A stretch of 35,096 bases of DNA from Fulvivirga sp. (lineage in GTDB: Bacteria > Bacteroidota > Bacteroidia > Cytophagales > Cyclobacteriaceae): assembly GCA_028280565.1 (NCBI GenBank), contig JANQLQ010000332.1, forward strand, positions 1 to 35,096. Reading direction: 5' to 3'. The notes under the pieces were generated by a model, which did not search any database, had not been told where the DNA came from, and worked only from the letters and a program-made list of their open reading frames with translations. The position numbers and the translations under genes were made by a program. Below, one piece after another: positions 10,603 to 11,721 of this stretch (within the stretch, counting starts at the first letter, position 1; the number at the start of each line of letters is the position of its first letter).

Positions 10603-10751
10603 ATCGTCATGGCGAGGCTGGCGGTGCTAGTGCAGGGGCTACGAAGCCATCCCCTCCAAGAGATATACCGGATGGACTTTGTTACCGCTTCTCGAGCAGG
10701 GGATCGCTTCACGCCTTGCCGAAGCCAACACACTGGGTTCGCGATGACGAT
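10603..10751. repeat. Family B intergenic repeat, copy 1
   Basis: A 149-bp element with inverted ends (ATCGTCATGGCGAGGCTGGC at the left, GCGATGACGAT at the right) and internal GGGGATCGCTTCACGCCTTG. Copy 2 at 11487 has the same orientation; copies 3 and 4 near 20336-20644 are inverted. No ORF; MITE-like. It ends 22 bases from the stop of the decayed HTH gene on the other strand. Confidence 0.85.
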
Positions 10752-10773
10752 AATGTTTTTTTGTTTAGGAGTT

Positions 10774-10965
10774 TTATCCCGAATTCACGTTGTTAACCTC
10801 GGCAGGTTCGGAGAACCTGGCAATTTTTAAGTCACAGGTCCTGGGGGCCTGCGCCAGTGGCAATCGCCGCGCCACACGATACGTAAGGTCTGCTTTAGCT
10901 AAAAAAACGTATTTACGTTTGATCCCACGGGCCCGGCAGATCGTATCCAGGTTAAATGTTAGCAT
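10774..10965 (-). pseudogene. Decayed or short XRE/Cro-type helix-turn-helix regulator
   Basis: A 63-codon frame starting MLTFNLDTICRARGI and continuing FLAKADLTYRVARRL. This matches the pattern of small Bacteroidota HTH proteins of the YozG/HTH_26 type, which open with a FNLxxIxxARGI helix and have a KxGLTxxVARRL recognition region. The ending (DLKIARFSEPAEVNNVNSG) resembles the fifth helix of such proteins but stops before the usual NELxxW tail, and a family B repeat lies just beyond the stop. I therefore call it a truncated or decaying gene, though a functional short protein is possible. Its upstream side on this strand is the 21-bp repeat array (58 bases away), so if active it might bind and regulate that array; this is inference. 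Confidence 0.5.
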
Positions 10966-11022
10966 TTTAGTCTATAAAGATTAGTAATAAGTAAATCATA
11001 TTCTTAATGTAGTCAATTTTAA

Positions 11023-11253
11023 TGGCGATATATTCTTTATTAGTGGCATTCTTGAATATAAGTATGGCTATATGTCATAATTTGTTGCGTTTTTAGAATT
11101 TATAAATGTCATTTAGGAATTAATATATTGCATTTAAGAATGTATGTATGCGTTTTATGAATTAAAAGATGGCAATTAAGAATATAATTGTAACGTTATT
11201 GTTTATAAATACTGCATTATGGTAAATAATGTTTGCATTTTGGAAAACTATTA
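11023..11253. repeat. Array of eleven contiguous degenerate 21-bp repeats, AT-rich
   Basis: Eleven units of exactly 21 bases run without gaps, starting at 11023, 11044, 11065, 11086, 11107, 11128, 11149, 11170, 11191, 11212 and 11233. Units begin TGGC or a close variant (C or G at position 4 in all units), have T at position 7 in all eleven, G at position 11 in nine, and usually AAT at positions 12-14; the rest is AT-rich and free. No frame is open through it, and there are no variable spacers, so it is neither coding nor a CRISPR array. Twenty-one bases equals two helical turns, so the conserved TGGC and G positions face the same side of the DNA. Such phasing fits cooperative protein binding (iterons, partition sites, multi-operator arrays), but I do not recognise the sequence. 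Confidence 0.85.
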
Positions 11254-11263
11254 AACTGTCATA

Positions 11264-11410
11264 GGTTGGGTACCTCCCCGTTAGCGTCTAACGATTGGAG
11301 AGCTCCAATGATGAGCTGATCCCTGGCTCGTGCGAGGTGTTAACCCCCTGGTCTTAGATCAAGCGCAGCGGTCCTAAGACCGCAAATCACCAAGAGCGTC
11401 CGCTCGGTGA
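11264..11410. ncRNA. Candidate structured RNA or DNA element next to the 21-bp array (strand unknown)
   Basis: A GC-rich island directly abuts the AT-rich array and has dense pairing potential. GGTT (11264-11267) pairs with AACC (11342-11345) and ACCTC (11272-11276) with GAGGT (11334-11338), enclosing two adjacent hairpins: CGTTAG/CTAACG (11279-11284, 11288-11293) and ATTGGA/TCCAAT (11294-11299, 11304-11309). Downstream, GGTCTTAG (11350-11357) pairs perfectly with CTAAGACC (11374-11381); an exclusive alternative is GCGGTC/GACCGC (11368-11373, 11378-11383) with a CTAA loop. A last stem joins TCACC and GAGC (11387-11397) to GCTC and GGTGA (11402-11410) with an AA bulge. No U-tract follows on either strand. 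I recognise no known RNA family. Confidence 0.5.
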
Positions 11411-11486
11411 AGTAATATAAAACGTCATATTTCAACTATGCCTTTGGTGAAATAGGAACTTAGTCCAGCTTTTGGGTTAAAAAATA

Positions 11487-11635
11487 ATCGTCACAGCGAG
11501 GCTGGCGTAGGCCGCGGGTGGGTTACGAAGCTGCCCCCTTCTCGTGTGTGATCGAATAGACCCTGTTCTCGTTCCGCGAGTGGGGGATCGCTTCACGCCT
11601 TGCCTAAGCCAACACGCTGGGTTCGCGATGACGAT
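11487..11635. repeat. Family B intergenic repeat, copy 2
   Basis: A 149-bp element, same orientation as copy 1, with left end ATCGTCACAGCGAGGCTGGC and right end GGGTTCGCGATGACGAT. The internal GGGGGATCGCTTCACGCCTTG is shared with copy 1. Copies 1 and 2 flank the HTH remnant, the 21-bp array and the structured segment as direct repeats. Confidence 0.85.
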
Positions 11636-11721
11636 AAGAACAAGGTGTGTCATAAGTAGGCTGGCGTTATAAATCCATCCAAAACCTATACCTAAGAACA
11701 TCATTCTTTACTTTCGAACAT

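Follow-up and report, generated by a model that had tools for sequence, protein, structure and literature searches.

A gapless array of eleven 21-bp direct repeats in a Fulvivirga sp. genome represents a pairing of gene and array that recurs across the phylum with 21-bp spacing and very different repeat sequences. Judged from its layout, the array resembles some twelve putative protein-docking sites lined up at even intervals before the gene of a small DNA-binding protein. We consider it probable that it is a multi-site operator of this adjoining Cro/C1-type (HTH_26) protein, which would bind it and control its own promoter. A literature search in PMC, which mostly does not reach papers in subscription journals, found no description of such loci.

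The 21-bp array and its reading frames

The array occupies positions 11023-11253 of the window (the whole 35,096-nucleotide stretch of DNA that was analyzed) and is assigned to the minus strand, that of the gene it precedes. Its eleven units follow one another without gaps and have the plus-strand consensus TGGCATTTTAGAATATAATTA. Compared with itself, the array matches at 0.53 at a lag of 21 bp, 0.57 at 42 bp and 0.54 at 63 bp. In 2000 dinucleotide shuffles, no lag from 10 to 69 gave a value as high as 0.53. The eleven contiguous units described in an earlier note on this DNA are thus borne out, by the very autocorrelation check against shuffled sequence that it had proposed. Its reading of the columns was also correct: among the eleven units, position 4 is C in nine and G in two, position 7 is T in all, and position 11 is G in nine.

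A profile built from the eleven units identified an additional in-phase unit, held out of the profile, that overlaps the HTH start codon (10960-10980, minus strand; 15.6 bits, with 0 of 20,000 shuffled units scoring equal or better). Two in-phase stretches that match the unit poorly (10981-11022, minus strand, starting at 10981 and 11002) lie between this unit and the array. The profile found no continuation of the array beyond 11253. Tandem Repeats Finder detects only part of it (11092-11145, period 21).

No ORF of at least 80 aa covers the window array, and 14 of 23 arrays from relatives lack a stop-free frame, in agreement with the claim that the array is non-coding. A heptapeptide-coding repeat (21 bp being seven codons) was considered and rejected, as the nine arrays that do have a stop-free frame carry it on one strand or the other and in varying frames. 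With such frames scattered in this way and present in only 9 of 23 arrays, a common repeat peptide is unsupported. Judged by its repeats, the array is also not a CRISPR, as had been stated: its units are contiguous and degenerate, whereas CRISPR repeats are near-identical and parted by unrelated spacers of constant size. A structured RNA was likewise set aside. The Rfam scan of the window returned no family at gathering score, and the fold z values are -1.2 for the left flank, -2.6 for the right flank and -3.2 for the whole region, both flanks consisting of repeated hairpin elements.

A second copy of the locus in the same genome

The HTH_26 gene of the window (Cro/C1-type) starts at 10965 on the minus strand, with the array upstream, and is cut after about 35 codons. 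What is left is a 5' remnant of 37 codons (10855-10965, minus strand) that is 86% identical to an intact copy and departs from it after about residue 35. A hairpin-rich repeat element lies where the gene is cut (10781-10856, no strand assigned); it has at least four other copies in the genome, counted from the 40 of 123 candidates that were scored, and some of these are a few hundred bases apart.

The array region is found once more in the 9.05-Mb genome, on contig C44, where the array is directly upstream of the intact HTH_26 gene (114 aa; L021:8354-8698). The encoded protein scores 42.2 bits against Pfam HTH_26 (PF13443), for which the gathering cut-off is 22. Between the two copies the array stretch is 84% identical (15.8% of positions differ) and each flank about 93%, and there is no indel within the 253-bp array stretch. 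The earlier note had described phase retention at low identity; the eleven window units, whose mean pairwise identity is 0.52, are in exact phase. In the C44 copy, a 1-bp deletion shifts the counterpart of the 10960 unit one base out of phase. Because the HTH gene is cut in the window, the window copy is an orphan array that could be served only in trans, by the intact copy.

The right flank (11254-11460, no strand assigned) is GC-rich, forms hairpins and is 93% identical to the C44 copy. Hairpin-rich parts of 11333-11420 recur at no fewer than 38 other places in the genome, some a few hundred bases apart. Integron-like attC sites were considered for this flank by eye only. A longer intergenic repeat (ending in GGGTTCGCGATGACG) is present on both sides of the locus, at 10610-10755 and 11490-11640, and again at the C44 copy. 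A mobile element carrying both array and gene was rejected: the two genome copies share about 0.8 kb, but no flanking gene is common to most loci of the family.

Recurrence of the array beside HTH_26 family genes

Homologues of the gene were searched for in 38 genomes, the window's own included (3 with a match), and in the class, where 58 of 395 genomes have a match, many through the HTH domain alone. A profile search in the phylum matched 16 of 395 genomes at E 1e-8. The family set comprises 39 loci from 25 genomes; not all are independent, in that L082 and L083 are identical and several genomes contribute more than one locus. Outside this set are L024 (for which the upstream sequence ends after 99 bp), L032 and L036 (in both of which an array was seen), L080 (where tblastn did not re-find the gene; array score 12.3) and weak matches. 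Arrays were scored as lag-21 matches minus 0.47 per base, taking the best segment in the 600 bp upstream, with a threshold of >10.

By this measure, 35 of the 39 family loci have an exact 21-bp array upstream. These arrays contain 6.7-18.8 copies and end 4-215 bp before the start codon, and in each of them the best period that is not a multiple of 21 scores lower. No clear upstream array was found in the remaining four loci (L089, L075, L079 and L097). As a control, 311 other ORFs of these loci were scored; 3 reach a score of 10, and two of these three are overlapping ORFs at a single array in L080, which was fetched for a weak family match. The array thus recurs near a conserved partner gene, the outcome that the earlier note had named beforehand as support. 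When periods of 9-89 were scanned in 33 loci around family matches (471.6 kb), the period was 21, 42 or 63 in each of the 28 arrays scoring at least 15, of which 27 are upstream of a family gene.

Full-length members that were new from the profile search have the array in three of four cases (L093, L096 and L098; L097 is without). None of nine matches to the HTH part only has an array within about 600 bp upstream, L107 having a 58-bp stretch about 0.7 kb upstream. The eleven weak-match loci that were examined (L025, L045, L046, L047, L049-L052 and L054-L056) contain no 21-bp array. The proteins encoded at four loci (L075, L077, L078 and L079) are 217-226 aa long and contain the family domain twice in tandem; two of these loci, L077 and L078, have clear 21-bp arrays. 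Absence of the array from the same locus in close relatives had been named in the earlier note as refuting. A search for the gene found a match in none of 14 same-genus genomes; the locus is therefore patchy, which, as far as this gene search goes, counts against the note's reading.

Pfam HTH_26 matches 24 of 25 aligned family members at E <=0.01. NCBIfam has no model for the family, a weak match of 1 of the 25 being to an unrelated model, and PHROG 24334, a group without a stated function, is hit by 16 of 25. At E <=1 there are five matching PDB sequences, of which the two best align over no more than the first 70 positions; the accessible part of their source paper deals with the SaPI2 repressor Stl2. 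In addition, 22 plasmid records and one phage record match the family protein in its HTH part, none over 80% of the protein, and two family members searched in viral contigs gave no match.

No gene occupies a fixed downstream place in common among 34 loci. A divergent gene encoding 312-326 aa lies across the array in nine of them (L063, L069, L070, L073, L076, L081, L084, L088 and L090). Pfam scans of three of these proteins gave no match for two and a C-terminal carboxypeptidase-regulatory-like domain for the third. Other neighbors within 6 kb include one kind of large protein, found in nine loci at positions that vary, and smaller common groups in five and three; no motor gene stood out among the neighbors.

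Unit sequence, protein identity and the conserved core

Array units are unrelated between distant members, being AT-rich in some and balanced in others. Among close proteins the units are alike: the mean z of unit similarity is 6.6 for proteins at least 80% identical (7 pairs, one of them a pair of identical loci), 3.6 at 60-80% (12 pairs), 1.2 at 45-60% (14 pairs) and 0.1-0.5 in the three classes below 45% (562 pairs). Over all 595 pairs the correlation with protein identity is negligible (Spearman 0.06, p 0.14). No unit match on the opposite strand relative to the gene was found with z >3 in the 33 pairs with at least 45% protein identity.

Among the five loci of genome G123, at least three groups of units can be told apart (L060/L061, L059/L063 and L062). 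L059 and L063 have much of the recognition helix in common and also the unit (z about 5). L062, which is 66-67% identical to both, has a different helix and an unrelated unit; this is a single contrast. A partial Mantel test of the recognition helix against the rest of the protein does not formally separate the two (p 0.058).

In the degenerate arrays of L086, L087 and L072, a 10-bp core, (A/G)CAATTAA(C/T)A, recurs every 21 bp while the 11-bp spacers drift, and the core carries 71-82% of the information. Of all 35 arrays, 6 have a clustered core at p <=0.05; two of these 6 are identical loci. Only 1 of 20 HTH-gene arrays has a unit dyad at p <=0.05, and a dyad operator of a Cro/C1 dimer was rejected on this lack of twofold symmetry.

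Differences between related arrays are of several kinds. Between L061 and L065 there is a difference of one whole 21-bp unit in the unit row and of another 21 bp in a leader repeat before the start codon, and L086 and L072 align over 383 bp with zero gaps. Indels that are not multiples of 21 were found between L060 and L065 (20, 2 and 2 bp) and between L087 and L072 (2, 3 and 6 bp); those between L086 and L087 (4, 2 and 13 bp) are all outside the unit row. On balance, the pattern of indels, core and spacers fits selected sites at fixed spacing better than plain duplication. The earlier note's suggestion of selection for the spacing and a small number of bases, comparable to helically phased arrays bound by proteins, is supported at the level of sequence by the recurrence beside the gene, by the indel-free array stretch of the two genome copies and by the core that is kept while spacers drift in L072, L086 and L087.

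Other 21-bp arrays

Genome G308, which carries the gene, is rich in arrays. A 345-kb sample (L064 and L109-L128) contains 80 tandem arrays, 74 of them with a period of 21 or 42. The density is about one array per 4.7 kb and may be too high, because the sample consists mostly of contig starts, where assembly may break at arrays. Most of these arrays have their own unit; by eye, a few units at contig starts recur. Among those that could be placed, 53 are between genes and 6 inside ORFs. Dyads at p <=0.05 occur in 33 of 75 G308-type arrays, compared with the 1 of 20 at HTH genes; since the units of G308 are dyad-rich and those of the HTH arrays are not, the G308 arrays may be another thing.

Arrays of 21 bp away from the gene are also present in G765 and G766 (kin of G308), G095 and G123; none were found in G767. 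With G308 and its kin left out, nine gene-bearing genomes (206 kb) contain five arrays, four of 21 or 42 bp, and genomes without a gene match (481 kb) contain three, one of 42 bp. That genome-wide 21-bp arrays track the presence of the gene is suggestive only. The window's genome has a second family of 21-bp arrays, with units near GGTACAATGCGATTCCTAGGT, at about six intergenic places (L137:3843-4155, L130:1607-1789 and L150-L153). The ends of these arrays are alike, so that each resembles a short mobile element with a minisatellite inside.

Comparison with known systems

Known Cro/C1-type (XRE) repressors bind one or a few dyad operators. The DNA-binding domain is alike here (HTH_26), but the sites would be many non-dyad direct repeats in exact phase. 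Plasmid iterons are in-phase direct repeats of ~17-22 bp that are read by the protein of the adjacent gene, and they bind winged-helix Rep initiators at replication origins. The in-phase period is shared with the arrays reported here, whereas the adjoining gene encodes an HTH_26 protein of about 105-125 aa and not a Rep.

The closest putative functional analogue is StbA with the stbDRs of plasmid R388. The available part of its description reports that StbA binds 9-bp direct repeats with 2-bp spacers at the promoter of its own operon, that these repeats occur every 11 bp, or one helical turn, in two sets of five, that the plasmid operon also includes stbB and stbC, and that further copies of the stbDR motif are found in other promoters (PMC3098194). 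As far as that part goes, the two systems are alike in having a small DNA-binding protein and direct (not inverted) repeats near its own promoter, the array being upstream in 35 of 39 loci here and its binding putative. Motif copies elsewhere are a further likeness. They differ in protein family, in period, 11 bp versus 21 bp or multiples with about ten sites at two turns, and in setting, a plasmid stbABC operon versus a lone HTH_26 gene on long contigs.

The BrickBuilt minisatellite of Porphyromonas gingivalis, in the part of its description available, consists of gapless 23-nt units in a MITE with leader and tail (PMC4596501). Gapless tandem short units are common to both, but the window array belongs to a gene locus. 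From the same partial description, the GGTACA family of the window's genome resembles BrickBuilt more than the window array does.

A probable multi-site operator and alternative explanations

If the array is a multi-site operator, each 21-bp unit would consist of one asymmetric ~10-bp site and then ~11 bp of spacer that is free to vary. A site at every second helical turn would place all sites on one face of the DNA, so that the proteins would bind in a head-to-tail row, touch and help each other. Such binding would most probably switch the protein's own transcription steeply, and control of its own expression would be the likeliest effect because the array reaches close to the start codon. 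What the sequences show is the array, its exact period and its place, the likeness of units among close proteins, and a core with spacers in three members; from these we infer binding, cooperativity and repression. A full match to a promoter consensus is present in only four upstream regions out of 35, and two of the four are identical; with so few matches, overlap of the arrays with promoters is putative.

In some genomes, a second array may bring another gene under the same control. Using the unit as a search pattern in four genomes, we found a second array of the genome's own unit in two, G313 and G191; in G160 and for one G123 locus, the search found the own array only. The second array of G313 has no family gene among the ORFs listed in the 1.4 kb downstream. 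That of G191 precedes, by some 70 bp, a putative start codon of a different ORF; the frame of this ORF is also open across the array, and the side on which a family gene would lie runs off the contig.

Around ten sites exceed the need of a simple operator, and the array is at the gene of its presumed binder in 35 of 39 loci. Both facts would also suit a structural or centromere-like locus, in which a coat of HTH protein on the array anchors or positions DNA, as StbA does with stbDRs, autoregulation being a by-product; the available part of the StbA paper places that system, similar in layout, in plasmid stability (PMC3098194). However, members are on long contigs, one of them (in G709) on a single-contig 3.9-Mb genome, and G123 has five. 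Moreover, neighbors within 6 kb of 34 loci belong to varied groups (9, 9, 5 and 3 loci), the matches in plasmid and phage records all cover less than 80% of the protein, and the two members searched in viral contigs had no match, so we regard a locus of this kind as rather unlikely. A slippage minisatellite, without function at the HTH gene and with a 21-bp period set mechanically by replication or by a bound protein, would account for arrays with near-identical units or 42-bp higher-order units, for the abundance of 21/42-bp arrays in G308 (74 of 80) and for the whole-unit difference between L061 and L065. It does not lead one to expect arrays beside one gene family (35/39 versus 3/311), a core that is kept while spacers drift, or window units that are 52% identical yet in exact phase, and we give it a small probability.

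The proximity of the arrays to the gene, of which 8 among the 35 end within 4-30 bp of the start codon, together with the one window unit that overlaps the start codon, raises the question of whether they act as RNA in the 5' leader of the HTH mRNA. This is very improbable: no Rfam family reached gathering score in the window, dyads that would make hairpins are present in only 1 of 20 arrays, and a constant period of two DNA turns has no obvious meaning for RNA. Finally, a different DNA-binding protein might read the arrays in place of the adjoining one, and a single protein could serve arrays genome-wide, for example in G308. The units, however, are alike when the adjoining proteins are close, and the five G123 loci have at least three unit groups, which makes another reader the least credible of these accounts.

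The multi-site operator remains our preferred reading. A broader picture can be offered tentatively, with odds that we put well below even. The family may constitute self-addressed nucleoprotein loci, phylum-wide, each an HTH protein with ~10 asymmetric sites exactly two helical turns apart that turn over with the protein, the one-faced row serving as a counting switch or an anchor point. In G308 and its kin, the spread of 21-bp arrays would then have reached a density near one in 4-5 kb, perhaps forming a system that spans the chromosome and shares this geometry.

About three dozen protein-array pairs, alike in spacing and diverse in unit sequence, provide material for following how a regulator and its sites change together. 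The series bears on why exactly two helical turns stay while the bases are free to change. For the HTH_26 proteins of such loci, the array would provide a testable candidate target next to their own gene.
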